NCBI GenBank assembly: GCA_019347895.1 | Contig: JAHWKM010000008.1 | Span: 1 to 50,279, forward strand | Direction of reading: 5' to 3' | DNA: 50,279 bases | Source of the DNA: Candidatus Parcubacteria bacterium | Lineage (GTDB): Bacteria; Patescibacteriota; Saccharimonadia; Saccharimonadales; 2-12-FULL-41-12 | Shown here: positions 26,073-42,647 of the stretch, one piece after another | Layout of the letters: each line of letters begins with the position of its first letter | Position numbering within the stretch: the stretch's first letter is position 1 | The notes under the pieces: generated by a model | The model's database searches: none | What the model was told of the DNA's origin: nothing | Seen by the model: only the letters and a program-made list of their open reading frames with translations | Position numbers and translations under genes: made by a program

Positions 26073-26241
26073 CACAACCTACGCACTTGAGTGCCCAGTG
26101 CATTTTCTCGACGAGAAACGGAGCGAGTTGTACAAGTGGTACTACTCGCGAGTATCGCAGACGAAAAATGTAATGGGGGCCAAGAACGACTTGCAAGAAC
26201 AAACTTGGTTTGGTCTGGAAAGGCGTGATGCGTAGGTTTTG
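26073..26241 (+). repeat. structured inverted-terminal element, copy A (full)
   Basis: The ends AACCTACGCA (from 26077) and TGCGTAGGTT (to 26238) are perfect complements. It shares long identical blocks with copy B, including CACTTGAGTGCCCAGTGCAT, and, near its right end, TTGCAAGAACAAACTTGGTT with copy D. Several internal palindromes (TTCTCG-A-CGAGAA, TTGTACAA, TACTCGCGAGTA). It ends 6 bases before tRNA-Gln. No protein coding. Confidence 0.85.
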
Positions 26242-26247
26242 GAGTAT

Positions 26248-26321
26248 TTCGGGATCGTCTAATGGTAGGACACTGGGTTTTGGTCCCAGCAATCTAGGTT
26301 CGAATCCTAGTCCCGAAGCCA
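26248..26321 (+). tRNA. tRNA-Gln (anticodon TTG)
   Basis: A full cloverleaf can be drawn: acceptor TTCGGGA/TCCCGAA, D-arm GTC...GAC with AATGGTAGG, anticodon arm CTGGG-TTTTGGT-CCCAG (anticodon TTG, reading CAA/CAG), and T-arm CTAGG-TTCGAAT-CCTAG. The discriminator is G and CCA is encoded (26319-26321). It lies directly after repeat copy A and directly before a long hairpin. Confidence 0.96.
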
Positions 26322-26378
26322 TTCGACTCACTTCTTTCGCTCATGGCCGTAGGCCCAGTAGAAAGAAGTTAGTCGAAT
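26321..26378 (+). repeat. long hairpin immediately 3' of tRNA-Gln
   Basis: 18-base arms (26321-26338 and 26361-26378) with one mismatch; the loop contains GGCC-GTA-GGCC. The left arm begins on the last base of the tRNA CCA. There is no T-run, so it is not a typical terminator; it may protect or set the 3' end during tRNA processing, or be a repeat. Confidence 0.75.
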
Positions 26379-26418
26379 GTGCTGAGTGAGCGTAGCGAAT
26401 CGAAGTACTTGTTTCTTG

Positions 26419-26424
26419 TATACT
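26419..26424 (+). promoter_or_regulatory. -10 box for a leaderless GIY-YIG transcript
   Basis: TATACT ends 7 bases before the ATG at 26432; no Shine-Dalgarno site lies between. Confidence 0.45.
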
Positions 26425-26431
26425 CTTATTC

Positions 26432-26716
26432 ATGTACTGTGTATATTTTCTGCGAAATTCAGTAAATCGTCTTTATATCGGGCAAACAGACGATCTCCAG
26501 AGAAGACTAATAGACCATCAAAGTAGTCATGGAGCTAAATTTATTAAAGATTATGGTAATTTCAAGCTTGTGTACATGGAGCAATTCGAGACAAGAGCCG
26601 AAGCAATGAAAAGGGAAAACCAACTTAAAAAATGGTCTCGTGCTAAAAAAGAAGCATTGATCATAGGCGACTTTAATCTTTTACAAAAGTTAAGTAGAAG
26701 CCAAAATATCCGTTAA
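26432..26716 (+). CDS. GIY-YIG family nuclease (UPF0213/YhbQ-like)
   Basis: A 94-residue single-domain GIY-YIG protein. The family signature is seen as YCVYFLRNSVNRLYIGQTDD with LQRRLIDHQ, followed by KLVYMEQFETRAEAMKRENQLKKWSRAKK, which contains the catalytic Glu-region of YhbQ-type proteins. These small proteins are structure-specific DNA nucleases of unclear cellular role, and are frequent near mobile or repeat-rich regions. It follows tRNA-Gln and a long hairpin, and appears to have its own leaderless promoter. Confidence 0.9.
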   Translation: MYCVYFLRNSVNRLYIGQTDDLQRRLIDHQSSHGAKFIKDYGNFKLVYMEQFETRAEAMKRENQLKKWSRAKKEALIIGDFNLLQKLSRSQNIR

Positions 26717-26755
26717 ATATATGACATACTAAAAACTGTAAATGTGTATGATAAG

Positions 26756-27766
26756 ATGATGAGGCAAATTTTGAAGCATAAGAAAAAGCTAATTGCCGGC
26801 GGCATTTTAGTAGTACTAGTGCTTGCCGCGTTGGTTTTTATTGTAATTAACAAGCAAGAAGAAACGAAACAGCCGACGCAGAAATATTATTCGCAGCTAA
26901 CAGGCCGAGAAGTAGCCCAAGACGTCTCTGAGCGGCCGATTCTGGGCGTTATGCTGGAAAACTCCAAGGCTGCCCGCCCGCAAACCGGCCTGGACTCGGC
27001 TGGAATTGTTTTTGAAGCCGTAACGGAGGGTGGTATAACCAGATATTTGGCACTTTATCAAGAAAATACCCCTGAAATTATCGGGCCGGTCCGAAGCCTC
27101 CGAACGCATTTCTTAAATTGGCTAATGGGTTTTGACGCGTCCGTAGCCCACGTGGGAGGCAGCGGGGAAGCCTTGCAGCTGGCTGATCAGCGCAACGCCA
27201 AAAGTCTAAGCCAGTTTAAATACGCCGAACCATACTACCGGGACAACAGCCGGGCATCTCCGCATAATATGTACACCCAAACGAGAGATTTGCGCGAATT
27301 GCAAAACGAACTAGATCATCAAACCAGCCAGTTTGCAGAAATTCCGCGTAGGGAGGCCAGCCCGATTAACAATGAACAATCCCAAGATAAGTCGCAGCAA
27401 GCCTCAGAAATCGAAATAAATTTCTCCAGCGCTCTTTACAGGGCGGAATTTCGTTATGATCCTGCCTCAAATTCCTATACTCGCTACCTGAGCGGCGAAC
27501 CCCACATTGATAAAGCTACGGACAAACCTATAACTGTAAAAAACCTGGTAGTTATAAAGGCTAAGGGCTTATCCGCCGGACTCGATGTGATTGGCAGCGG
27601 CGAAGCTCTAATATTCAACGACGGTAAGGTCGAAAAAGTCCGCTGGCAGCAAAACGATTTTCAAAAAAGAATCAAATTTTTTGATGATAATAATAACGAA
27701 GTAGCACTTCTGCGCGGGGACAGCTGGTTCGCCGGCGTAGGCTCTGACCGCCCCGTAAAATTCTAA
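26756..27766 (+). CDS. DUF3048 (YerB-like) membrane-anchored protein
   Basis: A protein of about 336 residues with a Lys-rich start, one N-terminal anchor (LIAGGILVVLVLAALVFIVI) and an extracellular DUF3048 domain (RPILGVMLENSKAARPQTGL, EGGITRYLALYQ, IGPVRSLRTHFLNWLMGFDA, HVGGSGEAL). The C-terminal part (NLVVIKAKGLSAGLDVIGSG, VRWQQNDFQKRIKFFD) is also typical of YerB. The function of the family is unknown; it is cell-envelope located. An in-frame GTG at 26744 lies inside a TATGAT box (26747-26752), so I place the start at ATG 26756 or the adjacent ATG 26759. Confidence 0.9.
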   Translation: MMRQILKHKKKLIAGGILVVLVLAALVFIVINKQEETKQPTQKYYSQLTGREVAQDVSERPILGVMLENSKAARPQTGLDSAGIVFEAVTEGGITRYLALYQENTPEIIGPVRSLRTHFLNWLMGFDASVAHVGGSGEALQLADQRNAKSLSQFKYAEPYYRDNSRASPHNMYTQTRDLRELQNELDHQTSQFAEIPRREASPINNEQSQDKSQQASEIEINFSSALYRAEFRYDPASNSYTRYLSGEPHIDKATDKPITVKNLVVIKAKGLSAGLDVIGSGEALIFNDGKVEKVRWQQNDFQKRIKFFDDNNNEVALLRGDSWFAGVGSDRPVKF

Positions 27767-27853
27767 AGTTAAATTTTATACAGTCTCATATCTTTTATTC
27801 TCTATAATTATAAATGCTCTTTAGCATTAAATTAGTATTAAAAGGAGGGAAAG

Positions 27854-27952
27854 ATGGCAGAAAAGAAAGATTTGGCTGACTACGGTGATGATGCCCGAAA
27901 AGGCTTAAAAGAATCTAGTTTGAAAGCTAAAGGTCAGCCACACGGGAATTAA
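27854..27952 (+). CDS. 32-residue charged small protein
   Basis: An open frame of 32 codons (MAEKKDLADYGDDARKGLKE, then a basic tail ending QPHGN) with the best ribosome site in the region, AAAGGAGGG about 5 bases before the ATG. A clear terminator follows 20 bases later. Composition is charged and helical. The combination of strong site, separate position and own terminator supports expression. No family recognised. Confidence 0.6.
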   Translation: MAEKKDLADYGDDARKGLKESSLKAKGQPHGN

Positions 27953-27972
27953 AAAGGCCCGAGTCGTAAATC

Positions 27973-28007
27973 AATTGCTTGTGTATTTATACATGAGCAA
28001 TTTTTTT
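27973..28007 (+). terminator. intrinsic terminator after the 32-residue gene
   Basis: A 14-bp stem (27973-27986 with 27989-28002, two G-U pairs) followed by a run of T's to 28007. Confidence 0.85.
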
Positions 28008-28027
28008 ATTGTTGAAGTTTAATAATT

Positions 28028-28081
28028 TGCGGTTTCGCCGCCTTATTTATTCGAGCTTTGACGAAACCGCATAAAATATGC
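28028..28081. repeat. inverted repeat TGCGGTTTCG / CGAAACCGCA
   Basis: Perfect 10-bp arms (28028-28037, 28072-28081) around a 34-base spacer, in the convergent gap between the small gene and the Rpf-like gene. It may reinforce termination or be a binding site. Confidence 0.6.
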
Positions 28082-28083
28082 TA

Positions 28084-28119
28084 GGTCTTTAGATAAATAA
28101 TAATAATTATCTAAGACCA
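28084..28119 (-). terminator. hairpin at the 3' end of the Rpf-like gene
   Basis: GGTCTT-AGATAA arms with a one-base bulge. One arm is the last codons of the gene itself, so the hairpin forms right across the stop codon. A weak T-rich stretch follows on the minus strand. Confidence 0.5.
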
Positions 28120-28742
28120 AGTTTGGCACTGCAGGCAGGCCACTGGCCCCATCCGCTGCGCTGTTGCAAGATCTTGCCTCGTTTGATTTGTTCAGCTTTG
28201 CTGGCATTGTGCGGTGAACCGCTGCCACCTACAGAATTCCAGGTTGCTTGGGTAAACTGCAATCCCCCGGAATAACCATTGCCGGTGTTAGTACTCCAAT
28301 TGCCGCCTGATTCACAGGCTGCTAAACGATCCCATACTCCACCGTTGTAGCTTGAGCTGGCACTTGAACCAGAAACCGGACGCGAAACCGAATTCGAGCT
28401 TGCCGATACTTTATTTGCGGATGTACTAGCAGATGTATTAGACGAGTAATTAGCGCTTGGGGATTGCGCCTGGACAGCTACGGTTCGCCTGGCTAATTCC
28501 TCGCTTGGATGCGGTATGCGGATTTTTTCGCCGGCATAAATCAAATCCGGATGCTTAATTTTTTTATTAGCGTCAAACAATCTAGGATAAGTCGTGTCGT
28601 GCTTTTGGGCAATTTTTTCTAACGTATCGCCGCGCTTGATTGTTAGCGTTTTATCTTTTTTATTTTCTTGAGCAGAAGCATTATCTGTCATAAAAATTAG
28701 GGCGGAAAATAATATCCCCGCACATATAGCAAATTTTCGCAT
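28107..28742 (-). CDS. secreted LysM and Rpf/transglycosylase-like protein
   Basis: A 211-residue exported cell-wall enzyme. A signal peptide at 1-25 (cut after NASAQ) is followed by a LysM peptidoglycan-binding domain (about 32-78, LTIKRGDTLEKIAQKHDTTY) and a Ser-rich linker (about 94-134). A C-terminal resuscitation-promoting-factor type domain spans 136-211: GVWDRLAACESGGNW with catalytic Glu144, GYSGGLQFTQATWNSVGG and GWGQWPAC. Cys143 and Cys204 match the family disulfide. Rpf domains cleave peptidoglycan glycan strands and are best known from Actinobacteria. The ATG at 28742 has GGAGG 5 bases upstream; an earlier in-frame start is discarded because it would bury the signal peptide. Confidence 0.93.
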   Translation of the reverse strand: MRKFAICAGILFSALIFMTDNASAQENKKDKTLTIKRGDTLEKIAQKHDTTYPRLFDANKKIKHPDLIYAGEKIRIPHPSEELARRTVAVQAQSPSANYSSNTSASTSANKVSASSNSVSRPVSGSSASSSYNGGVWDRLAACESGGNWSTNTGNGYSGGLQFTQATWNSVGGSGSPHNASKAEQIKRGKILQQRSGWGQWPACSAKLGLR

Positions 28743-28924
28743 TTGTCCTCCCGTTTCCAACCTAAAGCACACCTAGTAATTAGGTTTGTGCCGAGCCTTG
28801 ATTATTATTAGTTATGTGACATATTTTTTTGTAAGGTAACTCTGATAGGCTTGGATTTCGCGTCTTTTTACCCTACGGAAAAGACACAGATTTCCTATGC
28901 TACTATGTCAGAAACATAAGTCAA
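28743..28924 (-). promoter_or_regulatory. promoter and long leader of the Rpf-like gene
   Basis: On the minus strand, TTGACT (28919-28924) and TAGCAT (28897-28902) are 16 bases apart. The implied leader is about 145 bases long, unusually long for this genome. It contains a hairpin (28862-28868 with 28879-28885) and CCTAATTACTAGG-like palindromic sequence nearer the gene. I do not recognise a known riboswitch. Confidence 0.35.
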
Positions 28925-29045
28925 GCATTTACGGATAAATTAAACATCTTAATTTAGTTGTAATTTTATCTTCAAGAGCTAATTAGCTCTAAGATATTGA
29001 TTTTTCGGTCGCCATGAAAAATTTTAAGCTTGCGCCCCGGAGTCT

Positions 29046-29054
29046 TGCTATTAT
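29046..29054 (+). promoter_or_regulatory. extended -10 for a leaderless transcript
   Basis: TG, one base, TATTAT (29049-29054), ending 6 bases before the GTG start at 29061. Confidence 0.45.
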
Positions 29055-29060
29055 TAAAAG

Positions 29061-29342
29061 GTGTATGATATTGAAGTAGTACAAATTGACCAGGTTGACC
29101 GCCAAGATGACAGCAAGCTTAATTTTGAGGTTAATATTAATGGTTACAGCTACAGCGCGGGGATTTCGCGAGATTATTATCATAAACTGTCCAAAGGGAA
29201 AATTACTCCCCGGGAACTAGTAAAAAGATCATTTGAATTCCTGCTGAAAAGGGAAAGCCCGAAATCCATCCTTAAAAAATTCGATTTGTCGGTAATTAAT
29301 AAATATTTTCCCGAATACGAAGACGAAATCATCGTAAAATAG
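29061..29342 (+). CDS. conserved-looking hypothetical protein
   Basis: A 93-residue soluble protein: an N-terminal beta region (YDIEVVQIDQVDR, LNFEVNINGYSYSAGIS), then a helical part (ITPRELVKRSFEFLLKRE) and an acidic end. No family recognised. It starts with GTG close behind an extended -10 box. It is 28 bases upstream of the DUF3467-like gene and probably shares its transcript. Confidence 0.7.
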   Translation: MYDIEVVQIDQVDRQDDSKLNFEVNINGYSYSAGISRDYYHKLSKGKITPRELVKRSFEFLLKRESPKSILKKFDLSVINKYFPEYEDEIIVK

Positions 29343-29370
29343 TTAAAATAATAATGAAATGGAGTAGCAT

Positions 29371-29613
29371 ATGCCAGAAAAAGATGAGAAGCAACAACAG
29401 ATTAATTTTTCATTGGATGCTAATAAAACGCCGGTTTTATACGCTGACGGTTATCTAATCGGATCCAACCAACATGTCGTTACGCTTAATTTTGCCCAAG
29501 CCATGCCAGAACCAAGCCAGCAAAATATCGTAACGCGCGTCGCACTGACAAAAGAACAAGCCAAAGAATTTTTAAACAATCTTAAAGATCATATAGAAAA
29601 ATTCGAAGTTTAA
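29371..29613 (+). CDS. DUF3467-like protein
   Basis: An 80-residue protein with the pattern of DUF3467. It shows YADGYLIGSNQHVVTLNFAQ, then a Pro-rich turn (MPEPSQQ), VTRVALTKEQAKEFLNNLKD and a terminal helix ending EKFEV. Members are small proteins of unknown function in bacteria and archaea. GGAG lies about 9 bases before the ATG at 29371. Confidence 0.7.
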   Translation: MPEKDEKQQQINFSLDANKTPVLYADGYLIGSNQHVVTLNFAQAMPEPSQQNIVTRVALTKEQAKEFLNNLKDHIEKFEV

Positions 29614-29695
29614 AATTCCATTTACGGGACCCACGCTTACAAGCATTGTGACATTTATTACTGCGGTTCTTACGGCGCGCATTAATAATAGGCAG

Positions 29696-29723
29696 CATAA
29701 GTCGGGGTAAGGCCAGACTTATG
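29696..29723 (+). repeat. hairpin CATAAGTC / GACTTATG
   Basis: Perfect 8-bp arms with a 12-base loop in the gap 29614-29767. No T-run. It may be part of the leader of the next small gene. Confidence 0.45.
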
Positions 29724-29767
29724 GGAGCGGATAAGCAAATATTAGTTTATTTAGTGGGGGTACACAT

Positions 29768-29923
29768 ATGAAAAAGGTTCATGTAATAAATACACCTGTA
29801 AGAGTCGACGAATTATATCTTTACGACCCCGACGAAACCGGCATAACAGACTGGGACGACCATAGAGCTGAAGCGCTTCATATACGTAAATTGCGGGAAT
29901 TTAAGAAATCTGCCAAAGGTTGA
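29768..29923 (+). CDS. 51-residue small protein
   Basis: An open frame from ATG 29768 to TGA 29921-29923. The sequence begins MKKVHVINTPVRVDELYLYD, continues with an acidic part (DPDETGITDWDDHRAEA) and ends in a basic helix (IRKLREFKKSAKG). The ordered beta-then-helix layout and a GGGGG tract about 9 bases upstream favour a real gene. No family recognised. The phosphoribosyltransferase gene follows 39 bases later. Confidence 0.55.
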   Translation: MKKVHVINTPVRVDELYLYDPDETGITDWDDHRAEALHIRKLREFKKSAKG

Positions 29924-29962
29924 AAACCGTTCCTATATTGCGGCTTTAGTGGGAGGAAGTAA

Positions 29963-30619
29963 ATGTTTAAAGATAGAATTGAGGCGGGAAAACAGCTGGC
30001 TGCCAATCTTAAGCATTATCAGAAAGAAGATCCTGTAGTACTGGCCTTGCCAAGAGGCGGAGTTATACCGGGCAAAGTTGTAGCTGAAGAGCTAGAAGCT
30101 CCGCTGGGTCTTATGCTGGTCCGTAAAATTACTCATCCATTTCATCCGGAATATGCTATTGGTGCTGTGGTTGACCGCGAAAAAGCAATTTATAATCAAG
30201 CGCACGCAGCTTTCGTAAGCCCTAAGTGGCTGGAGAAATCCGAGGCAAGCGCACGTAAGCTTATGGAGTATCGCCGCGAGCTTTATTACGGCACCGATTA
30301 TCTTCCTCCGGATACGGAAGGCAAAACCATTATCATAGTAGATGACGGAATAGCGACAGGCCTTACTATGAAAGCAGCTGTTTTAGCTATGCGTGAAAAG
30401 CATCCGGAGCAAATAGTTGTGGCTGCACCCGTGGCTTCAAGCGAAAGTGTTGCGGCGCTGGAAGCAATAGCCGATGAAGTAGCCGTGCTATACGATCCGG
30501 CGCATTTTAAAGGCGCGGTTGGAGCCCATTATCTTATATTTAATCAAGTTGGCGATGAAGAAGTCCGAAAGATTGTCCTTGAAGAAGCTCGCGAATTTCG
30601 TAATATGGCAATGCGATAA
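29963..30619 (+). CDS. phosphoribosyltransferase-domain protein
   Basis: A 218-residue type I phosphoribosyltransferase-fold protein. VLALPRGGVIPGKVVAEEL near the N-terminus and the PRPP-binding motif TIIIVDDGIATGLTMKAA are both visible, with the usual IVVAAPVAS strand after it. This subgroup (often found alone or fused to a dienelactone-hydrolase domain) has no settled substrate. Nearby purine genes are 3 kb away and not linked in transcription. GGGAGGAAG precedes the ATG. Confidence 0.88.
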   Translation: MFKDRIEAGKQLAANLKHYQKEDPVVLALPRGGVIPGKVVAEELEAPLGLMLVRKITHPFHPEYAIGAVVDREKAIYNQAHAAFVSPKWLEKSEASARKLMEYRRELYYGTDYLPPDTEGKTIIIVDDGIATGLTMKAAVLAMREKHPEQIVVAAPVASSESVAALEAIADEVAVLYDPAHFKGAVGAHYLIFNQVGDEEVRKIVLEEAREFRNMAMR

Positions 30620-30649
30620 ATTAATATATAAAAATCTTGTGGATAAGTT

Positions 30650-30678
30650 TTGACAATTCAAATTATTAGGAAGATAAT
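30650..30678 (+). promoter_or_regulatory. strong promoter of the candidate small RNA
   Basis: A perfect TTGACA (30650-30655), a 17-base spacer and GATAAT (30673-30678). The predicted start (about 30684-30686) falls on the first bases of hairpin 1. It is the best -35 in the window. Confidence 0.8.
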
Positions 30679-30683
30679 TATAA

Positions 30684-30768
30684 GGTCATCGTGAGGTGAC
30701 CATTCGCCTAAAAACGAATGCGGGAGTGCTAAGGCACTCCCTGAAGCCCCGAAAGGGGCTTCTTTTTT
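30684..30768 (+). ncRNA. candidate small RNA made of four hairpins with own promoter and terminator
   Basis: Four stem-loops follow with almost no spacer. HP1 30684-30701 is a 7-bp stem with a GTGA loop. HP2 is about 30702-30719 (ATTCG/CGAAT). HP3 30722-30741 is a perfect 8-bp stem with a TAAG loop. HP4 30743-30762 is a perfect 8-bp stem with a GAAA loop, followed by six T's (30763-30768), a textbook terminator. With the promoter at 30650-30678 this would give an RNA of about 85 bases. It could also be a terminated leader of the Ala/Gly-rich gene at 30819. No known family recognised. Confidence 0.75.
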
Positions 30769-30818
30769 ATAATGCTTATGTGATATCTTGTTGTATATAC
30801 ATAAATAGGAGTTATACG

Positions 30819-31388
30819 ATGATAGATAAAATAATAAACGAGTCAACTAACGCTGTGGCAGCTGCTATTAGCGGAGTCGATAATGTGCTTGACGCGCTGA
30901 CCGGCGCCGTAAGAGGGCAAGTAGTAAATGTATTACAAACCGCTGGAGAAGTAGGTACCACGACCGTAGAGGCTGTCGCCTCAGTGGCTGATGGAGCTAT
31001 AAGAGGCGCAGGCAATGTAGGCGCTTCGCTGACTGATACGGTATTTAACACCATGTCCGGCATTGTAGCCGGCGTTAGCCAAGTAGGCGGTGATGTTATC
31101 GGGGCTATCCGCGGCGGGGCAGAAGGTGTTATAAAGGCAACCGCCGACACGGGCGGAGACATTGGTTCTGCGGCTGTTTCAACTGTAGAAGGCGCCATTA
31201 AAGCAGCCGGAGACGTTGGAGTAGATTCCGCCCAGGCAGCCCAAGCAGCAGCTAGCGGAGTCCTTGACGCCGCCACTGAAGTTGGCGGAGACGCGGCCAG
31301 CAAGGCCAGGGAAGCATTGCTTTCCGCAGCCTCTCTTCCTAGAGACGTAATCGAGTCGGTTATTAGCGGCAGCGACGAAAAAAAATAA
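30819..31388 (+). CDS. Ala/Gly/Val-rich repetitive helical protein
   Basis: A 189-residue protein built of loose repeats of about 11-22 residues, for example DGAIRGAGNVGASLTDTV, GDVIGAIRGGAEGVIKATAD and EGAIKAAGDVGVDSAQAAQA. It has very few aromatic residues, no Cys and a charged end (SGSDEKK). The pattern is like phasin, LEA or apolipoprotein-type amphipathic helices that coat a surface such as membrane, granule or nucleoid. That is inference. The ATG at 30819 has AGGAG 8 bases upstream; an earlier in-frame start would run through the hairpin RNA and is rejected. Confidence 0.75.
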   Translation: MIDKIINESTNAVAAAISGVDNVLDALTGAVRGQVVNVLQTAGEVGTTTVEAVASVADGAIRGAGNVGASLTDTVFNTMSGIVAGVSQVGGDVIGAIRGGAEGVIKATADTGGDIGSAAVSTVEGAIKAAGDVGVDSAQAAQAAASGVLDAATEVGGDAASKAREALLSAASLPRDVIESVISGSDEKK

Positions 31389-31392
31389 ACTT

Positions 31393-31603
31393 ACAGCCTA
31401 CACACCACGCCTTTCCAGATCAAAGCAAGTTTGCTCTTGCAAGGCGTTCTTGGTCTTCGACTCTGAGGGAAGAGCTCTCAGGCTCAGACTCGAACGAGCG
31501 CCCAGCACATTTTTAGTTTCCGCTACTCTCAAGTAGTACCTTTGTACAACTTGTTCCGTTGCTCAACGAGAAAATGCACTGGGCACTCAAGTGCGGAGGC
31601 TGT
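31393..31603 (-). repeat. structured inverted-terminal element, copy B (full, inverted)
   Basis: Read on the minus strand it aligns along its whole length with copy A, plus a 45-base extra hairpin (arms 31456-31467 and 31483-31494). Its ends ACAGCCT and AGGCTGT differ from AACCT/AGGTT of the other copies but still pair, a compensatory change. An 18-bp internal stem (GAGTGCCCAGTGCATTTT with its partner) pairs with three G-U pairs. Its plus-strand end runs into the -10 box of the gene at 31615. Confidence 0.85.
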
Positions 31604-31614
31604 AATATTAATAC

Positions 31615-32004
31615 ATGATCAATGAATATGTAGCTGGTAGGGTTAATATAGGCGATGAAGAGATTAAGCACAGGCGCTTAACTTACGGATGGGGCGGGTT
31701 GACCTTAGCAATTGCCCTGTTCTTAATTTTTATTTTTTTTAATGTTTCCTTTTACACCTATTTATTATTGTTTTTCCCGATTTATATTTCTTTTATTGGC
31801 TTTTTGCAGGCACGCGAAAAATTTTGCATAGCTTACGGTAAATCAGGCGTTTGCAACGTTTCCGGTCAGGTCGGAGAGACAAGAGATGTCGTAGGTCGGC
31901 TCAATAGAAACAAAGACAGGCAAAAAGCTAGCAAAATGCTTGCGGTTTCTCTGACGGGTTCAGGAATCATTACTTTGGCGATAGCGGCTTTAAGCTCGCT
32001 ATAA
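31615..32004 (+). CDS. small integral membrane protein
   Basis: A 129-residue protein with about three membrane segments: LTLAIALFLIFIFFNV with YTYLLLFFPIYISFIGFL, and a C-terminal one (AVSLTGSGIITLAIAALSS). A soluble middle loop holds REKFCIAYGKSGVCNVSGQV and a basic stretch (RLNRNKDRQKASK). Two Cys lie in that loop. No family can be named with confidence. A TAATAT box (31603-31608) ends 6 bases before the ATG, so the transcript is probably leaderless. Confidence 0.75.
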   Translation: MINEYVAGRVNIGDEEIKHRRLTYGWGGLTLAIALFLIFIFFNVSFYTYLLLFFPIYISFIGFLQAREKFCIAYGKSGVCNVSGQVGETRDVVGRLNRNKDRQKASKMLAVSLTGSGIITLAIAALSSL

Positions 32005-32007
32005 ATA

Positions 32008-32037
32008 TTGACTACGATAACGCGCCCATGCTTTAGT
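32008..32037 (+). promoter_or_regulatory. promoter of a leaderless gene at 32045
   Basis: TTGACT (32008-32013), an 18-base spacer and TTTAGT (32032-32037), ending 7 bases before the ATG. Confidence 0.45.
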
Positions 32038-32044
32038 AATTACT

Positions 32045-32602: not shown

Positions 32603-32626
32603 GACTAGTGCATTAAGTTTTCTCAA

Positions 32627-32635
32627 TGGTATTAT
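32627..32635 (+). promoter_or_regulatory. extended -10 for a leaderless phosphatase transcript
   Basis: TG, one base, TATTAT (32630-32635), ending 9 bases before the ATG at 32645. Confidence 0.45.
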
Positions 32636-32644
32636 TATTTATCA

Positions 32645-35710: not shown

Positions 35711-35721
35711 TCATAGGTTGA

Positions 35722-35751
35722 TTGAGGGATTGTACATATAGTTGGTAAGAT
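35722..35751 (+). promoter_or_regulatory. purK promoter, leaderless type
   Basis: TTGAGG (35722-35727), an 18-base spacer and TAAGAT (35746-35751) preceded by TG and one base (extended -10). It ends 7 bases before the ATG. Confidence 0.5.
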
Positions 35752-35758
35752 AATAACA

Positions 35759-36883
35759 ATGAATGCTAAAAAAACCCTCGGGATCGTCGGCGGCGGCCAG
35801 CTTGGCCGAATGCTGAGCGAGCCGGCTATAAAACTTGGTTACGGAGTTATTGTAGTTGACCCGACTGATAATTGTCCGGCCAAACAAGTCGGCGCGCGTC
35901 AGATTATAGCAGGCTTCAGAGATGAAAAAGCCATAAGAGAGCTGGCAAAAAATTCGGATTTTATAACTATTGAAAGCGAGCATGTTAATGTAAAAGCTCT
36001 TTCAGAAATTTTAGATAAAAAGGTTAATCCTAGCTCCCAAACTATTGAACTGATTCAGGATAAGTACAAACAAAAACAATTTCTAAAAGATAGCGGCCTC
36101 CCCGTTGCGGATTTTGTTGAAATAAACTCAGTTGAAAACGCCCGGTTAACCTTAGCTGGTTTCGGCGGAAAAATGATGCTGAAGTCAAAGACCGATGCTT
36201 TTGATGGACGAGGAAATGCTTTAGTTTCATCTGTTGAAGAACTGGATGCTGCTTTTTTGAGATTCGAAAAAAGAGAACTTTATGCCGAGCAAATCATTAC
36301 TTTTGAAAAAGAACTGGCCGTTATGGTTGCCAAAGATATCAAAGGCAATATAGTAAGTTATCCAGTGGTTGAAACGGTTCATAAGCGCAGTATTTGCATT
36401 GAAGTTTATGCCGCCGCTCAAATTGATGAACAAACAATCGAAAATGCCCGTCAAACGGCCGAAAAAGCCGTCAGCCTGCTTGATGGTGCCGGTGTTTACG
36501 GCGTGGAAATGTTTTTGAGCAAAAGCGAAATACTGGTCAATGAAATTGCGCCGAGAGTCCATAATTCCGGACATTACACTATGGATGCGTGTGCGACCTC
36601 TCAATTTGAGCAGCACATTCGGGCAGTGACGGAAATGGAACTTGGCAACACGGAAATGACTGCTCCAGCTTGTGTGATGGTTAATATTTTAGGTGAAAGA
36701 AACGGAGCTATAGCATTGACCGGAGTAGAAAAAGCCGAGGCTATCGATGGCGTTTCAGTTTATATATATGGTAAAACACCGACTAAAGTTGATCGCAAAA
36801 TGGGACATATTAACGCGGTTGCGGGTACAATAGAAGAAGCTAGAGAAAAAGCGCTAAAAGCAAGAAAGCTAATTAGTATTTAG
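35759..36883 (+). CDS. purK: N5-carboxyaminoimidazole ribonucleotide synthetase
   Basis: PurK carboxylates AIR with bicarbonate and ATP to N5-CAIR. The 374-residue ATP-grasp protein begins KKTLGIVGGGQLGRMLSEPA. It has KSKTDAFDGRGNALV (ATP-binding loop), YAEQIITFEKELAVMVAK, EMFLSKSEILVNEIAPRVHN and HYTMDACATSQFEQHIRA. Length and motif order are standard. It is followed 8 bases later by purE, the mutase that uses its product, so the bicarbonate-dependent two-step route is present rather than a one-step class II PurE. Confidence 0.97.
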   Translation: MNAKKTLGIVGGGQLGRMLSEPAIKLGYGVIVVDPTDNCPAKQVGARQIIAGFRDEKAIRELAKNSDFITIESEHVNVKALSEILDKKVNPSSQTIELIQDKYKQKQFLKDSGLPVADFVEINSVENARLTLAGFGGKMMLKSKTDAFDGRGNALVSSVEELDAAFLRFEKRELYAEQIITFEKELAVMVAKDIKGNIVSYPVVETVHKRSICIEVYAAAQIDEQTIENARQTAEKAVSLLDGAGVYGVEMFLSKSEILVNEIAPRVHNSGHYTMDACATSQFEQHIRAVTEMELGNTEMTAPACVMVNILGERNGAIALTGVEKAEAIDGVSVYIYGKTPTKVDRKMGHINAVAGTIEEAREKALKARKLISI

Positions 36884-36891
36884 GAGGCCAT

Positions 36892-37374
36892 ATGCCAGTC
36901 GTTGGAATTATAATGGGATCGAAATCAGACCTGGAAATAATGCAAGCCGCAGCCGATATTTTAGAAGAATTCGGGGTGGAGCATGAAGTAAGAGTCATTT
37001 CAGCTCATCGTACTCCGGATGAGATGAATGAATACGCCAAATCCTCCGCTGAACGAGGCCTGAAGGTTATTATAGCCGGCGCCGGCGGTTCCGCGCATCT
37101 GCCGGGGATGACCGCCTCGCATACAACTTTGCCGGTCCTAGCCGTACCGATTAAGAAAAACTCGCATGATCATGAGGCGCTATGGTCAAACATCAAAATG
37201 CCGCCAGGTGTCCCGCTAGCCACAATGCCAGAAAACGGCGCTAAAAACGCTGCCCTAATGGCAATCGAAATCTTGAGCCTAAACAACAGCGAGCTATTAG
37301 AGGGATATAAAAAATACAATCAGATCCAGCACGATAAGGTTCTTGCAGACGATAATTCAGTCAAAAATGCCTGA
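36892..37374 (+). CDS. purE: N5-CAIR mutase PurE (class I)
   Basis: PurE moves the carboxyl group of N5-CAIR to give CAIR. The 160-residue protein shows IMGSKSDLEIMQAAADILEE, VISAHRTPDEM (catalytic His), IIAGAGGSAHLPGMTASHT and MPPGVPLATMPENGAKNAAL. AGGAGG lies 6 bases before the ATG. The loop DHEALWSNI replaces the usual G-x-D-S-L. Its last 8 bases overlap the following HAD-like reading frame, and its stop is TGA. Confidence 0.97.
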   Translation: MPVVGIIMGSKSDLEIMQAAADILEEFGVEHEVRVISAHRTPDEMNEYAKSSAERGLKVIIAGAGGSAHLPGMTASHTTLPVLAVPIKKNSHDHEALWSNIKMPPGVPLATMPENGAKNAALMAIEILSLNNSELLEGYKKYNQIQHDKVLADDNSVKNA

Positions 37375-38223
37375 TCCGATAAAGGCTATTATCACAGACG
37401 TTGATGGTGTTATGGTTGGCAAAACAGAAGGTATTGATTTTCCTCTGCCTCGTAAAAATGTTATCGACAGATTAAAAAAGATTTCAAAAGACGATATACC
37501 AGTTGTCTTATGCACGGCGAAATTTGGAGATTCCGTAAAACAAATCGTCATTGAGGCAGATCTCCATAATCCGCATATTACAGATGGCGGCGCATTAATT
37601 ATTGACTACGTCGGTAATACTACAATTAAAAGCCATCTTTTAAACAATAAAATCGTAAATCAATTCACTGAAGAAACATTAAATTATGATATTTATACCG
37701 AAATCTATACGCCTATAAGCTACTTTGTTCAGAAATCTCAGTTGGGGAGTTTATTAACAAACGTATAAAAGTTATTCAATCCAAACCAAATTTAGCCGAG
37801 TCATTAGAAGAAGTAGTAAAAGTTAACGAAATCATAAAAATTATCTGTTTCGTCGAAGATAAGGACGTTCCAAGACTGGAATCTATAGCAAAAAAATATG
37901 AAAACAGCGTACATTATATTTGGTCGAGCCACCCATATTTAGAGCCGAAAAAAATTATGATTATTACTGCTCCCGGCGTTTCAAAAAAGCATGCTGCGGT
38001 TGAGATAGCCGAGTCTATCAATGTTCCTCTTCGGTCGATTTTGGGCATTGGTGACAATCTAGCTGACTGGCAATTTATGGAACTTTGCGGCTATACCGCG
38101 GCTATGGGTAATGCAACGGATGATTTGAAGGAACTTGTAAGCGCACGAGGCGACAAAGGATATGTAGGAAAATCCATAGATAAAAATGGAATTTTAGATA
38201 TATTGAATCATTATGCGCTATAG
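37367..38223 (+). pseudogene. HAD-superfamily phosphatase split by a frameshift
   Basis: From ATG 37367 the first frame encodes a HAD hydrolase start (KAIITDVDGVMVGKTEG with the catalytic DVDG) and ends at the TAA 37766-37768. The protein continues in the -1 frame: SEISVGEFINKRIKVIQSK from about 37729, through a helical cap region, to the HAD motif IV GIGDNLADWQFMELCGY and a stop at 38223. The shift lies near 37726-37738. The joined product of about 285 residues would be a normal Cof-like sugar-phosphate phosphatase. No classic slippery heptamer is visible, so a lost base, or a sequencing or assembly error, is more likely than programmed shifting. Confidence 0.75.
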
Positions 38224-38226
38224 AAT

Positions 38227-38296
38227 AACCACCTCCGCCAAGAACGGCTTGCAGAGTCTGGCTTTTCCAGGCTTGGAGAGTCGAGGTGCGTAGGTT
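38227..38296 (+). repeat. structured inverted-terminal element, copy C (short, diverged)
   Basis: Begins AACCACCTCCGCCAAGAACG and ends GAGGTGCGTAGGTT. The right end is identical to copy D; the left end has drifted but CACCTC/GAGGTG still pairs. It fills the gap between two HAD genes. Its terminal GTG (38286) is the likely start codon of the next gene. Confidence 0.7.
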
Positions 38297-38948
38297 CGAA
38301 GCGGTCATTTTTGATATGGATGGACTGATGGTGGATAGTGAGCATCTGCATTCGCGTTCCTTTGAAATTGTATTGAATAACCATGGTGTCAAGCCGGAAT
38401 TAAACGAATCCGGAATAATTCAAACGCTTGGAGTTGGCACTCCGAAGAATTGGGAAAAGCTTAAGGAAAAATATAATTTAAAAGATTCGGTCGAAAAACT
38501 GACGAGACAAAAGCACGACGCGTACGTAAAGCTTATCCCGGAAATCAGCGATATGCCGGGCCTTAAACCGCTATTAAAAGATTTGAAAAAATCAAAGATT
38601 AAACTAGCCGTCGCTTCAGGGTCCTCAAAGCACAATATAGACGAAATTTTAAATCTGCTGAATATTAAGAGTTATTTTGACGCGGTTGTTTCCGGGGAGG
38701 AGCTGGACAATGCCAAGCCGGCGCCCGATATTTTTTTAGAAGCTACGAAGCATCTAAACGTTACTCCGGCAAACTGCATAATTTTGGAAGACGCGCAGAG
38801 CGGAATCAAGGCTGGAAAGGCGGCCGGAGCCACAGTCGTAGCCGTACCGAATCGATTTAGCAAAAACCAAGACCTCTTTGAAGCGGATCACATTTTTAAT
38901 TCACTGGAAGATCTTTCGGCTGAGAAGCTAAAGAAATTGTTAGCCTGA
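38286..38948 (+). CDS. HAD-superfamily hydrolase, beta-phosphoglucomutase-like
   Basis: A 220-residue subclass IA HAD phosphatase or mutase. FEAVIFDMDGLMVDSEHLHS has the nucleophile Asp and is followed by a helical cap. LAVASGSSKHNIDEIL (motif II Ser), VVSGEELDNAKPAPDIF (Lys) and IILEDAQSGIKAGKAAGA (acidic pair) follow in order. The VDSEHLH sequence after motif I fits phosphoglycolate or beta-phosphoglucomutase-like members; the substrate is not settled. The start GTG at 38286 is formed by the end of repeat copy C, with no separate ribosome site except the AGAG/GAGG of the repeat. Confidence 0.9.
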   Translation: MRRFEAVIFDMDGLMVDSEHLHSRSFEIVLNNHGVKPELNESGIIQTLGVGTPKNWEKLKEKYNLKDSVEKLTRQKHDAYVKLIPEISDMPGLKPLLKDLKKSKIKLAVASGSSKHNIDEILNLLNIKSYFDAVVSGEELDNAKPAPDIFLEATKHLNVTPANCIILEDAQSGIKAGKAAGATVVAVPNRFSKNQDLFEADHIFNSLEDLSAEKLKKLLA

Positions 38949-38957
38949 TGATACAAT
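38949..38957 (+). promoter_or_regulatory. extended -10 for a leaderless transcript
   Basis: TG, one base, TACAAT (38952-38957), ending 7 bases before the GTG start at 38965. Confidence 0.5.
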
Positions 38958-38964
38958 CTAAGAA

Positions 38965-39525
38965 GTGGACAACTATACATTAATTGACTGGCTGAAATCA
39001 TTAGGAAGTAAAACACCGACGCCTGGAGGCGGGGCGGTCGCGGGGCTGAACGGTGCTATTGCCGCAGCCCAGCTAAAAATGGTTTGCGAGTACACTGAAG
39101 ACGAACTAGAAGGCAAACCGGATCTAATTGAGACGATCAAAAAATTTTTAAATCTAAGCGAGCAAGACAGCCAGGCTTATTTGGCTATTAAAGAAGCTTA
39201 TGGCTCCAAGAATAACGAAAAAATTCAACGAGCATTGTATAGTGCAATCAAACCGAGTGAAGAAATTGCCGCGCACTGCAAAATTATTTATAATTTTTGC
39301 GAAATAAATTCTGATAAATTTAATAAAAATTTGCTTTCTGATCTGGTTGTAGCGCTAGCCAATATTGCCGCTTCCATCGAATCCGCCCAAGCAATGATGA
39401 AGGTAAATGCCAGCTCAATGAATGAAGGACGAAATAGAGACGAAACATTAGAAAAAGTAGAACGTTGCGACCGGCTTATAGGGAAAGTCAATTCTCTAAA
39501 AAACAAAATTAAAGGACAGCTCTAA
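38965..39525 (+). CDS. FtcD-C-type cyclodeaminase/cyclohydrolase protein
   Basis: A 186-residue all-helical protein of the formiminotransferase-cyclodeaminase C-terminal family (FchA-like). The signature SKTPTPGGGAVAGLNGAIAA is at the N-terminus, followed by MVCEYT and a helical bundle ending with NEGRNRDETLEKVERCDRLI. FchA acts as methenyl-THF cyclohydrolase and FtcD-C as a formimino-THF cyclodeaminase. Fusion-like coupling to folD (last A of the TAA is the first base of the folD ATG) and nearby purN suggest a role in making 10-formyl-THF. It starts with GTG and has a leaderless promoter geometry. Confidence 0.87.
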   Translation: MDNYTLIDWLKSLGSKTPTPGGGAVAGLNGAIAAAQLKMVCEYTEDELEGKPDLIETIKKFLNLSEQDSQAYLAIKEAYGSKNNEKIQRALYSAIKPSEEIAAHCKIIYNFCEINSDKFNKNLLSDLVVALANIAASIESAQAMMKVNASSMNEGRNRDETLEKVERCDRLIGKVNSLKNKIKGQL

Positions 39526-40367
39526 TGGCGCAGATTTTAGATGGAAAAATTGTAGCCCAAAAAATCCGCGTTCAAATTGAGTCTGAGGTTTCTGCCATGG
39601 CACAAGCCGGCAAACAAGTAAAGTTAGCCATAGTCTTAGCCAGCGAAGACCCCTCAAGCATGTCGTATGTAAATGCAATAGTCAGGGCCAGCGAGAAAGT
39701 CGGCGTGATAACCCAGATAGAAAAGCCGAGTGATATTAACCAATCTAACCTGGAGCTGATAGTCGCAAACTTAGCTCAAGATACAGGTACGCACGGCATC
39801 ATTCTGCAGACACCGCTGCCAGAAGAAGTTAACGTTGATAAATTATCTTCTTTAATACCCCCCAAAAAAGACGTGGACGGGCTGAACCCGCTTAACGCCG
39901 GACGATTAGCCTTGGGCTTAGACTGTTTCGCTCCGGCGACAGCACAGGCAGTAATGGAAATTCTAAATTATTATGATATCGAGCTGTCTGGGAAAAATAC
40001 GGTGGTGATCGGGCGCAGCAACACTGTCGGCAAACCGGTCGCCCAGCTGCTGCTAAAGCGCAATGCTACTGTCAGCGTGTGCCACTCAAAAACTAAAAAT
40101 ATTAGTCAATTTAGCAATGCTGCCGACATTTTAGTTACGGCTATCGGCAAGTCAAAACTTATCACTTCAGAATTCGTTCATGAAAACCTAACTATAATTG
40201 ATGTCGGTACAAATTTTGATTCCTCGGGGAAAATGACGGGCGACGTAGACTTTGAAGGCGTTGAACCGATCGTTAAAGCTATCACGCCGGTTCCAGGCGG
40301 AGTTGGCCCTGTAACTACCGCCGTACTTCTCAAACATACTTGTGAATCCGCTATGAAATCCTTATAA
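39525..40367 (+). CDS. folD: bifunctional methylene-THF dehydrogenase/cyclohydrolase
   Basis: FolD interconverts 5,10-methylene-THF and 10-formyl-THF. The 280-residue protein shows the start AQILDGKIVAQKIRVQI, SYVNAIVRASEKVGV (the conserved YxxxK-like region with Ser-Tyr-Val), GIILQTPLPE, KDVDGLNPLNAG, GRSNTVGKPVAQLLL (NADP site) and TPVPGGVGPVTTAVLL. Length is standard. Its start overlaps the FtcD-C-type gene by one base. It sits just upstream of purF-purN, matching the need of PurN for 10-formyl-THF. Confidence 0.97.
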   Translation: MAQILDGKIVAQKIRVQIESEVSAMAQAGKQVKLAIVLASEDPSSMSYVNAIVRASEKVGVITQIEKPSDINQSNLELIVANLAQDTGTHGIILQTPLPEEVNVDKLSSLIPPKKDVDGLNPLNAGRLALGLDCFAPATAQAVMEILNYYDIELSGKNTVVIGRSNTVGKPVAQLLLKRNATVSVCHSKTKNISQFSNAADILVTAIGKSKLITSEFVHENLTIIDVGTNFDSSGKMTGDVDFEGVEPIVKAITPVPGGVGPVTTAVLLKHTCESAMKSL

Positions 40368-40403
40368 TAAAAAAGGCAGGTTAATGCTAATGCGGATTAA
40401 GGA

Positions 40404-41867
40404 ATGCTAGTGAATCCAGGCGACGAGCTTCAAGAAAAATGCGCGGTATTCGGAGCTTTTGGTTCGTCAAATGAAGCCGCCCGATTAACCTACTACGGTC
40501 TTTGGGCGCTGCAGCATCGGGGCCAGGAAAGTTCTGGAATTGCCAGCTCCGACGGCCAAGAAATTTATGACCATAATGATTTTGGCTTAGTAGCCACCGT
40601 TTACCACGAAGAAGACATTAAAAAATTAAAGGGTAACATCGCCATCGGCCACAACCGCTATTCGACTTCCGGCGGCCGCGATGAATGTTATAACCAACCT
40701 TATATTCGAAAATCACGCCTGTTTGCTTTCGCCCATAATGGCAATCTGCCAAGTACCGAAAAATTAGAAAAATTTTTAATAGAAAAAAATGTGGCAATAG
40801 AAGATCTCAATGATTCCGGCATGATGGCAGCGGCGATTAGCCACCACATTAAGCAAGGCTACACGCTCGAAAATGCCATCAAAAAATCTTATCCCCTTTT
40901 CGAGGGGATTTTTTCTGCCGTGGCAATGGATAAAAATAAGCTGGTAGCCTTTCGCGATGAATTTGGCGTCAGACCGCTATCGATTGCTAAATTCGATAAA
41001 GGCTACGTCGTGTCTTCCGAAACATGCGCCTTTGAAACTATAGGAGCTGAATTCGTCAGGGAAGTAAACCCCGGCGAATTAGTAGTAATCGACAAAAATG
41101 GCATAACTTCGCACCAAGTCGTCAAAGGCAACCAGAAGCTCGACATATTCGAGTTCGTATATTTCGCTCGCCCCGACAGTAAAATTATGGGCCGCAGTGT
41201 CAATAAAGTCCGCGAAAACTTTGGTAAAATCCTGGCCATGGAGTATCCAGTGCATGCTGATATCGTGGTGCCTGTGCCTGACTCATCCGTACCGGCCGCT
41301 CTCGGATATTCCCGCCAGAGCGGTTTGCCTTTTGAAATGGCGCTAGTCAAAAACCGCTACATTAACCGTACTTTCATTCGTCCAACCGCCGAACTCAGGG
41401 CCAGGGATGTAGCGCTAAAATTAAACCCTATCATACAAGCTCTACAGAATAAACGGGTTATTTTGATCGATGATTCGATTGTTCGCGGAACAACAATGAA
41501 ACAAGTCGTAAAAATGCTGCGCGGTGTAGGGGTAAGCGAAGTCCATTTAATGATCAGCTCGCCGCCGGTCATGTTTCCGGATTTTTACGGGATCAACACG
41601 CCTAATCAGAAAGACTTGATAGCTTCAAGAATGTCAGTAGAAGAAATAAGAAAATACCTGGATGCCGATTCGCTGGGCTTTTTGTCATTTGAAGGTATGG
41701 TTAAGGCCACCGGTATAGACGCGGACAATTTTTGCACCTCATGTTTTACAGGTGAATATCCGGCGCCTATTGGTAAAAGATCAAAAACTATCAGATACAT
41801 TAACGGGCGTCCCAGCGCTCGAAAATCTTCAGCCAAAAAGCTATCCGAAAACAAGGTTCTCGTTTAA
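40404..41867 (+). CDS. purF: amidophosphoribosyltransferase
   Basis: PurF makes phosphoribosylamine from PRPP and glutamine, the committed step. The 487-residue protein has a short propeptide (12 residues) before the catalytic Cys13 in KCAVFGAFG, as in the Bacillus enzyme. GLWALQHRGQESSGIA and GHNRYSTSG of the glutaminase domain follow. The PRPP motif is VILIDDSIVRGTTMKQ. The C-terminal CTSCFTGEYP resembles the cysteine pair that binds an iron-sulfur cluster in Bacillus-type PurF. A GTG at 40410 is a possible alternative start. It is 8 bases upstream of purN. Confidence 0.96.
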   Translation: MLVNPGDELQEKCAVFGAFGSSNEAARLTYYGLWALQHRGQESSGIASSDGQEIYDHNDFGLVATVYHEEDIKKLKGNIAIGHNRYSTSGGRDECYNQPYIRKSRLFAFAHNGNLPSTEKLEKFLIEKNVAIEDLNDSGMMAAAISHHIKQGYTLENAIKKSYPLFEGIFSAVAMDKNKLVAFRDEFGVRPLSIAKFDKGYVVSSETCAFETIGAEFVREVNPGELVVIDKNGITSHQVVKGNQKLDIFEFVYFARPDSKIMGRSVNKVRENFGKILAMEYPVHADIVVPVPDSSVPAALGYSRQSGLPFEMALVKNRYINRTFIRPTAELRARDVALKLNPIIQALQNKRVILIDDSIVRGTTMKQVVKMLRGVGVSEVHLMISSPPVMFPDFYGINTPNQKDLIASRMSVEEIRKYLDADSLGFLSFEGMVKATGIDADNFCTSCFTGEYPAPIGKRSKTIRYINGRPSARKSSAKKLSENKVLV

Positions 41868-41875
41868 ACATTAAA

Positions 41876-42562
41876 ATGCGAAAGCCTAGAGTCGCCATAC
41901 TCGCTTCCGGCGGCGGCACCACGGCTGAATCATTTATAAAATCATGCGCAGCAGGTGAGATTTCTGCCAGTGTAGCGGCCGTCATCTCAAATAAAAGACA
42001 AGCCGGCGTTTTTGAAAAAGTAAAAAAACTGAATGATGCCTTTGGGCTGGATATTAAATCTCTGCATATTGGCAAATCAAATTTTCCGGCTGAAGAAAAA
42101 GAAAAGGTAGATTATGGCCGTCAAACCAAGGCTGAGGAAAAAGCGATTTTAGACAAATTGGACGAACTGAAAATCGATTTGGTAATTTTACTCGGTTACA
42201 TGAAATTAGTCGGTTCCAGCATTGTAAAAAAATATGGTTGGCAGAAAGATTACACTTCTGTCTATCAGGCGCGCATGCTTAACACTCATCCTGGATTACT
42301 GCCTCATACCAAAGGCTTGTACGGAATCCATATCCAGCAGTTTGTGCTAATCAATAAAAAACCGGCCGGACACTGTATATTTGCCGTTGATGACGACTAC
42401 GATGACGGCCCGGTTATTTCTGAACATAAGGTATCGGTTGAGCCGGATGATACGCCGGAAAGGTTATTCGAACGAGTCAAACAATCTGAGAAATTTTATC
42501 TAGCTGAAGATTTTGAAAAGTTTATCAAAGGACAAATGAAATACGAAAATCATGGACAATAA
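41876..42562 (+). CDS. purN: phosphoribosylglycinamide formyltransferase
   Basis: PurN transfers a formyl group from 10-formyl-THF to GAR. The 228-residue protein starts KPRVAILASGGGTTAESF (phosphate loop), has the catalytic region MLNTHPGLLPHTKGLYGIH with Asn and His, and ends with FAVDDDYDDGPVISEHKV containing the Asp. An insertion of about 15-20 residues before the NTHPG motif (KKYGWQKDYTSVYQARM) makes it longer than the 200-210 usual. It follows purF by 8 bases. Four bases after its stop, repeat copy D begins. Confidence 0.95.
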   Translation: MRKPRVAILASGGGTTAESFIKSCAAGEISASVAAVISNKRQAGVFEKVKKLNDAFGLDIKSLHIGKSNFPAEEKEKVDYGRQTKAEEKAILDKLDELKIDLVILLGYMKLVGSSIVKKYGWQKDYTSVYQARMLNTHPGLLPHTKGLYGIHIQQFVLINKKPAGHCIFAVDDDYDDGPVISEHKVSVEPDDTPERLFERVKQSEKFYLAEDFEKFIKGQMKYENHGQ

Positions 42563-42565
42563 AAT

Positions 42566-42647
42566 CACAACCTACGCACTGGGTGCCAAGAACGCCTTGC
42601 AAGAACAAACTTGGTTTGGTCTGGAAAGGCGTGGTGCGTAGGTTGTG
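42566..42647 (+). repeat. structured inverted-terminal element, copy D (short), containing the purD start codon
   Basis: Perfect 14-bp terminal inverted repeats: CACAACCTACGCAC (42566-42579) and GTGCGTAGGTTGTG (42634-42647). The last GTG is the purD start codon. It lacks the roughly 90-base inner module of copies A and B but keeps the inner arms ACGCCTT/AAGGCGT and the CAAG/CTTG loop. Confidence 0.9.

Follow-up and report, generated by a model that had tools for sequence, protein, structure and literature searches.

The 50,279-nt stretch of Candidatus Parcubacteria bacterium analyzed here (the window; positions 1 to 50,279 of contig JAHWKM010000008.1, assembly GCA_019347895.1) holds four dispersed, terminally inverted repeats, named copies A to D, and raises the question of what kind of element they are. 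The original prediction took them for a family of structured repeats placed directly upstream of genes, either a mobile element that doubles as a leader or an undescribed structured RNA of this lineage. We conclude, with a probability of roughly three in four, that they belong to a non-autonomous mobile palindromic element of Patescibacteria, which works like the Rickettsia palindromic elements (RPEs) and has a deeply conserved fold. The copies are dispersed, their paired positions covary, with more G-U than A-C on one strand, their distribution is patchy, and the nearest relative of a copy lies in the same genome more often than chance would give. Orthologous sites occur with and without the element, there is a tendency for its 3′ end to point towards a gene, and conserved proteins contain in-frame insertions of it. 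The element appears to have dispersed across Saccharibacteria and other Patescibacteria through insertion at the edges of genes and, at times, in frame within essential genes, without disabling them.

The four window copies

All four repeats were reread from the sequence, recovered again as repeat families, and placed by two covariance models, R1 (built from 13 aligned copies of the window genome) and R2 (built from held-out copies). The predicted four-copy family is therefore present as described, with three strong members and one weak one; copies A, B, and D are beyond doubt, and copy C is a decayed, shortened copy.

Copy A (26072..26242, plus strand; R1 170.8 bits, E 2.2e-38; R2 131.6 bits) is full length, with the helices P1, P2, and P3. 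A TATAAT, -10-like hexamer was read directly at 26058..26063 (plus strand), 8 nt upstream, and a tRNA-Gln gene identified by ARAGORN (26248-26321) follows 5 nt past the 3′ end, as close as had been claimed. Copy B (31391..31605, minus strand; R1 148.4 bits, E 6.0e-33) is also full length and carries an extra 45-nt hairpin between P2 and P3, with approximate limits 31454..31498 (minus strand) taken from the copy alignment and the gap between BLAST pieces. A one-base deletion in copy B shifts the reading frame seen in its sister copies. Copy B had been proposed as the leader of the gene at 31615; this reading fails, as the copy has the inverted orientation, with 2 nt between its 3′ end and the stop codon of the gene at 30696-31388. 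The same 45-nt hairpin is found in one other genomic copy (L037:1501-1758, contig C21), which lies before murB and carries two additional hairpins inserted in frame, of 42 and 45 nt; hairpin modules have thus been gained or lost.

Copies C and D lack the inner module, as originally noted. Copy D (42565..42648, plus strand; R1 71.1 bits, E 3.1e-14; R2 52.1 bits) is a short form without nearly all of P2. Its 3′ arm contains the GTG start (42645) of the ORF at 42645-43913, assigned to purD by eye, and a 29-codon open frame through the copy (42552..42641, plus strand; translation MDNKITTYALGAKNALQEQTWFGLERRGA, then a stop) ends 3 nt before this GTG. Copy C (plus strand) is placed at 38202..38300 by R2 (17.3 bits, E 0.045) and at 38204-38298 by R1 (27.8 bits, E 9.3e-4) and overlaps the start of a gene resembling a HAD hydrolase by eye. 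A 26-codon open frame runs through it (38213..38293, plus strand; translation MRYRITTSAKNGLQSLAFPGLESRGA, then a stop), with its stop just past the GTG start (38286) of the next ORF, 38286-38948. Four other short forms are found in the window genome; together with C and D they measure 75-128 nt and lack part or all of P2.

A conserved three-way junction

The element is about 171 nt long and folds into a three-way junction of 70 base pairs. The closing helix P1 joins the two ends; its outer part varies between copies yet stays self-complementary, and in 106 of 167 copies the helix measures 13-16 bp. P2 is the long arm; its internal loop is conserved and its GUA/UAC tip almost invariant. P3 forms the second arm of the junction. 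No family of Rfam 15 reaches its threshold over the element in the window and 28 loci.

The fold was evaluated on alignment A1, which contains 13 copies of the window genome (A, B, and 11 located beyond the window) under a 70-pair structure drawn by hand. Pairing is possible in 90.2% of cells, compared with 74.4% after shuffling and 36-42% with slid partners. Changes on both sides of a pair occur in 150 cells, against 46 in shuffles and 21-45 with slid partners, and 44 of the 70 pairs show such a change; the compensatory change first noticed at the ends of copy B is therefore real and general. Among 64 distinct held-out copies (alignment A5), 68 of 70 pairs have two-sided changes and the covariation score is 0.706, compared with 0.061-0.094 for slid controls, while the 85.8% of cells that pair is a percentage leaning towards the model because the alignment was fitted to it.

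G-U cells outnumber A-C cells on the element strand in every class of copies. The ratio is 235:80 in first-set start-codon copies, and in copies antisense to a stop codon it is 173:31 (first set) and 98:44 (held out), or 34:7 and 24:6 when P1 is counted alone. This excess points to selection on the element strand as RNA or single-stranded DNA.

Distribution among Patescibacteria

BLAST of copy A against its own genome (907,117 bases, 27 contigs) returned 19 matches, and R1 found 37 at E≤1, of which 35 had E≤0.001; the matches at the ends of contigs C27 and C20 may represent one copy divided by the assembly. Across 60 genomes, the own genome included, R1 matched 34 (0 to 32 matches each) and R2 matched 41 (28 of 40 in a subset run), with the highest number, 37-38, in genome G037. 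The element occurs in at least 79 of 392 genomes in a sample of the class and in at least 17 of 379 in a sample of the phylum, 11 of them outside the class (best E 7.8e-20); these counts are lower bounds because seven candidates per genome were scored. G002, of the same family as the window genome, has no match with R1 or R2.

The original prediction would have fallen with a lack of further copies or of further covariation; both were found in the genome and its relatives. Its two identities are each borne out in part, by the signs of mobility described below and by the missing Rfam match, but the 11 genomes outside the class contradict a restriction to this lineage.

Placement at gene edges

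Placement was scored in two sets of copies: a first set of 103, from which the pattern emerged, and 64 held-out copies obtained later and scored by fixed code. Both sets lean towards strong hits and do not amount to a census. These 167 copies exclude L042, a copy at a contig end, and L033, a duplicate locus; the held-out loci L302 and L303 come from G034, which also supplied one first-set copy. Some class lists were made by hand; the final placement and open-frame counts followed fixed rules.

In 29 of 103 first-set and 26 of 64 held-out copies (55/167 in total), no more than 10 nt separate the 3′ end from the stop codon of a frame of at least 100 codons on the other strand; positions drawn at random from these loci give 1.8% and 2.4%. 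Only seven first-set and four held-out copies have their 5′ end towards a same-strand stop codon. The start codon of a same-strand frame of this minimum length is located at -6 to +3 of the 3′ end in 44 of 103 first-set copies, against 5.9% at random, and six copies of each set are internal to protein genes. The claim that the element lies directly upstream of genes thus holds for the many copies at leader positions, but not for the 55 antisense copies at stop codons or the 12 inside coding sequence. Selection alone could possibly account for this placement, but would not by itself explain the orientation.

RNA genes are adjoined as well. The 3′ end of the element abuts tRNA-Gln (copy A), another tRNA gene (L063), a 5S rRNA gene (L074), and an FMN riboswitch (L105), and an Rfam search of 18 loci without a recognized protein neighbor revealed tRNA, 5S rRNA, 23S rRNA, FMN riboswitch, and L10 leader sequences nearby. 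In L105:1530-1834 the element meets the 3′ border of the riboswitch, which is on the opposite strand. In L074:1171-1671 the 5S rRNA gene sits between two elements whose 3′ ends face it, one at its 5′ end and the other about 42 nt past its 3′ end. The window itself contains a ribosomal protein L10 leader (RF00557, 50.8 bits) at 10006-10148.

Two protein genes illustrate the edges. In L117 (G037 C2:563800-568700), a pyruvate kinase gene has an element on its start codon and an inverted element on its stop codon, with a RAYT gene beside the first. By eye, 27 of 30 loci preserve the C-terminal motif of RNase J; the element of G014 and that of G037 start at the RNase J stop codon, with the native C-terminus retained. 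Some empty relatives (e.g., L225, L229, and L231) have a TTGACA-like box within about 10 bases of this stop codon (by eye), which leaves little room there and would suit placement by selection alone. Sequence resembling a diverged element by eye also follows the RNase J stop codon in L216 of G011, a genome that R1 missed and in which R2 found four copies.

Insertions inside conserved proteins

Thirteen copies lie within ORFs that stay open across the element, and 12 were retained after L086:1499, where both flanking runs are short, was dropped. The hosts are a UDP-sugar dehydrogenase, a methylpurine-DNA glycosylase, a ZIP transporter (with the element antisense), GlmS, DNA primase (DnaG), TsaD, Fpg (two cases), an AAA ATPase of the MgsA/RarA kind, an NYN protein, PheT, and PrmC. 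Ten were identified by Pfam matches, the UDP-sugar dehydrogenase by an NCBIfam match, and the Fpg of L272 by similarity. A scan that did not require an open frame gave 19 cases with long runs on both sides, eight in frame and open and 11 not; by our own reading, these 11 are different genes on either side or chance frames. The eight cases whose two flanks we read as one protein are all in frame and open, which argues against RNA splicing.

The Fpg gene carries an element at the same place in three genera of one family (L305, L309, and L310), that is, in 3 of 22 loci scanned, and G224, of the same genus as one of these carriers, has an Fpg gene without it. Between these inserts, 9-26 pairs are changed on both sides, and 6-11 pairs form in one insert of two.

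Start-codon copies and open frames

The open-frame count used a wider start window than the placement count and comprised 53 first-set copies. An ATG is found near the 5′ end in 45 of the 53, and the frame is open through the element in 38. Of 67 such ATGs, 49 are open, against an average of 36% of frames, and stop-codon copies are open in only 4 of 29 cases (Fisher p=5e-7 versus start-codon copies). The stop of these frames ends most commonly at -7 (27/49), as a TAG a few bases before the new start, or at 0 (10/49), and TATAAT-like -10 boxes are commonest 12-24 nt upstream of the copies. Since different copies use different frames, openness rather than the peptide seems to be kept.

Gain, loss, and kinship of copies

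Closely related loci with and without the element reveal how precisely it comes and goes. An element is located at the start of a sugar-transferase gene in 3 of 80 named loci (L120, L133, and L137), with a fourth case in L119 of G037. Compared with L134 (86% protein identity), L133 has an insertion between the -10 region and the ATG, and L120 has a like insertion relative to L121 (87% protein identity). All four filled sites have ATG or ATGA on either side of the element, and two of them have close empty relatives. These repeats suggest a short target duplication, or start codons that were retained, perhaps by selection; the pairs of empty and filled sites show precise gain or loss. A copying of the P1 arms from the target is unsupported by L133 and L134, where the arm is not native sequence.

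In a tree restricted to 151 copies of 150-200 nt, the nearest leaf comes from the same genome for 49 copies, compared with a mean of 7.8 and a maximum of 20 after shuffling. Same-site copies are mostly not each other's nearest relatives; the copies at guaA and those of one glycosyltransferase pair do lie close together and may reflect vertical inheritance.

A RAYT is the leading candidate for the mover

Sixty genomes were searched for a mover with the Y1_Tnp and RVT_1 profiles. Y1_Tnp matched in 19, with 18 over the cut-off. The association with the element is weak when presence is judged by R1 (14/34 bearing and 5/26 free genomes, p=0.095) and clearer with R2 (17/41 and 2/19, Fisher p=0.019). 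RAYT-type genes over the cut-off, a post hoc class that we read from protein length, motif, and matched profile part, occur in 17/41 bearing and 0/19 free genomes by R2 (p=5e-4). All these tests ignore kinship. The original prediction had suggested looking for a RAYT, and the R2 association agrees with this idea, but five of six scanned Y1 loci hold no element. The sixth, L202 of G037, has elements on both sides of its RAYT gene.

A large REP/BIME-type element moved by a RAYT would be a special form of the mobile palindromic element rather than its opposite, and we rated it higher after the recount with R2, though still as less likely than not. The RAYT of G037 between two elements agrees with it, and folding as a single strand would suit a Y1 enzyme. 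On the other side, 24 element-bearing genomes have no Y1 match, including the copy-rich G001, G004, G015, and G050; copy number shows no clear difference with and without Y1 (medians 6 and 5, p=0.10); and the RAYT of G037 is flanked by short palindromes of its own. We accordingly treat a RAYT as the leading candidate only.

Several related observations were made. A 27-nt palindrome, TGTGAAAGGTCAGACCTYTCACAGATT, occurs twice in the window (7586-7612 and 48797-48823), and similar palindromes flank the RAYT of G037 (L202, about 1225-1260 and 1925-1960); it is probably a REP-type repeat of a RAYT. The own genome holds an intact RAYT-like Y1 transposase gene encoding 203 aa (L203:1306-1917, contig C20), with no element in the 3.2 kb scanned, and another with an internal TGA (contig C23:57349-57591).

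Other movers and carriers were considered and set aside. RVT_1, the profile for reverse transcriptases, matched in 10 of 60 genomes, with none in G000, G001, G014, or G037 (9/41 bearing and 1/19 free, p=0.15). For phages and plasmids, blastn of copy A gave no phage or plasmid match, and an exact core pattern had no match in viral contigs, both searches reaching close relatives only.

Discussion

The following points weigh against the mobile palindromic element. The start-codon placement was not replicated, with 4 of 64 held-out copies at this position (4.3% at random), nor was the open frame, found in 2 of 14 held-out start copies. In total, 52 of 167 copies (24 first set and 28 held out) fall outside all three contexts. 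The insertion sites showed no target motif, and the target duplication is only suggested, by four start-codon sites where selection may keep the ATG. The searches with Y1_Tnp and RVT_1 in 60 genomes established no mover. The alignments behind the G-U excess had been fitted to a same-strand model, which leans towards such an excess. Finally, the same-place Fpg inserts still fold at 50-72% identity; if they are vertical, their covariation exceeds the expectation for dead inserts, so that a retained function is possible.

With these points in mind, a mechanism can be proposed for the mobile palindromic element. The copying machinery would recognize the fold, either as RNA or as single-stranded DNA, since the P1 sequence drifts whereas P1 length and the core are preserved. 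The mover would act in trans, with a RAYT as the leading candidate. In compact genomes, insertions may be survivable mainly at the stop-codon edge, at the start-codon edge, and in tolerant loops of proteins. At first-set start sites, a frame would open at an ATG close to the 5′ end, in many cases preceded by a TATAAT-like box, run through the element, and stop on or next to the new start codon in the 3′ arm; ribosomes might then melt the fold and re-initiate on the host gene. We infer that such translation and re-initiation are a property of the first-set genomes, since the held-out copies did not replicate the pattern, and the leader ORF was rejected as a general mechanism for the same reason.

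Other readings fit less of the evidence. A folded RNA, perhaps with a host protein, may itself be the mobile or targeting intermediate directed to gene edges, which would make the element a phylum-wide, protein-free RNA family. We regard this as rather unlikely, as the recounted RAYT association makes a DNA transposase likelier. It is also unlikely that the copies are domesticated RNAs, 5′ leaders or 3′-end elements that regulate or protect the adjacent transcript and whose function keeps the fold. The covariation, which extends to the Fpg inserts, the directional placement, the -10-like boxes and open frames at first-set start codons, and the copies abutting tRNA and 5S rRNA genes would all suit such a role. 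However, the neighboring genes are diverse, G002 lacks a match within the same family, same-site copies are mostly not nearest relatives, and copies are found antisense, inside proteins, and, in the case of B, broken.

An intron-like RNA, self-splicing or otherwise excised so that insertions are silent, would account for the conserved fold, the ends joined by P1, and the insertions within conserved genes, but is highly improbable, as excision would not require all eight one-protein cases to be in frame and open. A family of small protein genes of about 55 aa, with the fold secondary, agrees with the open frame in many window-genome copies but is barely credible, because many copies have a broken or different frame yet retain the fold, and 68 of 70 pairs change on both sides.

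The closest analogy is with the RPEs. According to two papers (PMC2229807, PMC10969869), RPEs are 105-146 bp long, have terminal inverted repeats and long stem-loops, and lie between genes, in frame in conserved proteins, and also in RNA genes; a similar case in Wolbachia is cited by the review. The present element is likewise a short palindromic repeat with inverted ends and many copies, inserted in frame in conserved proteins (12 of 167 copies) as well as between genes. It differs in its host, Patescibacteria rather than Rickettsiales, in its length of about 171 nt with a conserved three-way junction, and in the tendency of its 3′ end to face a gene. We therefore liken it to the RPEs by description rather than by sequence: it would work like an RPE, while by host it is not a member of that family.

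Other known systems share some of its properties. The ERIC, YPAL, NEMIS, and RUP elements, miniature inverted-repeat transposable elements (MITEs), have inverted ends, folded transcripts, open frames, and empty and filled sites (PMC2229807). The element resembles MITEs in size, inverted ends, the lack of its own transposase gene, open frames, and empty and filled sites. Unlike MITEs, it keeps the pairing and length of its outer ends and not their sequence, spans more than one class, and has no known parent transposon whose ends match its own (the search covered Y1_Tnp and RVT_1).

The REP and BIME repeats of RAYTs are also palindromic and multi-copy, and RAYT-type genes occur in the 17 bearing genomes mentioned above; in contrast, the element is five to eight times longer than REP palindromes, and the G037 RAYT has separate short palindromes. 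With riboswitches and ribosomal leaders it has in common a covarying structure and, in part of the copies, the start-codon position, but not the antisense and internal copies or the lack of an Rfam match. A riboswitch was judged unlikely, as no regulon was seen among the neighbors.

Literature searches on repeats, non-coding RNA, MITEs, and in-frame insertions of Saccharibacteria and the candidate phyla radiation gave no description of the family among the matches listed, with subscription journals mostly outside their coverage; insertions in rRNA genes of these bacteria are the subject of PMC11270868. The element has an unusually conserved fold and a wide host range.

Patescibacteria have streamlined genomes, yet more than 30 copies are present in two of the genomes searched, and the element is found within conserved housekeeping genes. 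Its covariation suffices to define a consensus fold with which annotation pipelines can mask or label it. For protein-coding palindromes, so far described in Rickettsia and Wolbachia, the family would be a second example, independent and broader, from a different group of bacteria that depend on hosts, and the movement, gene-edge placement, and translatability of such elements become testable in cultured Saccharibacteria.

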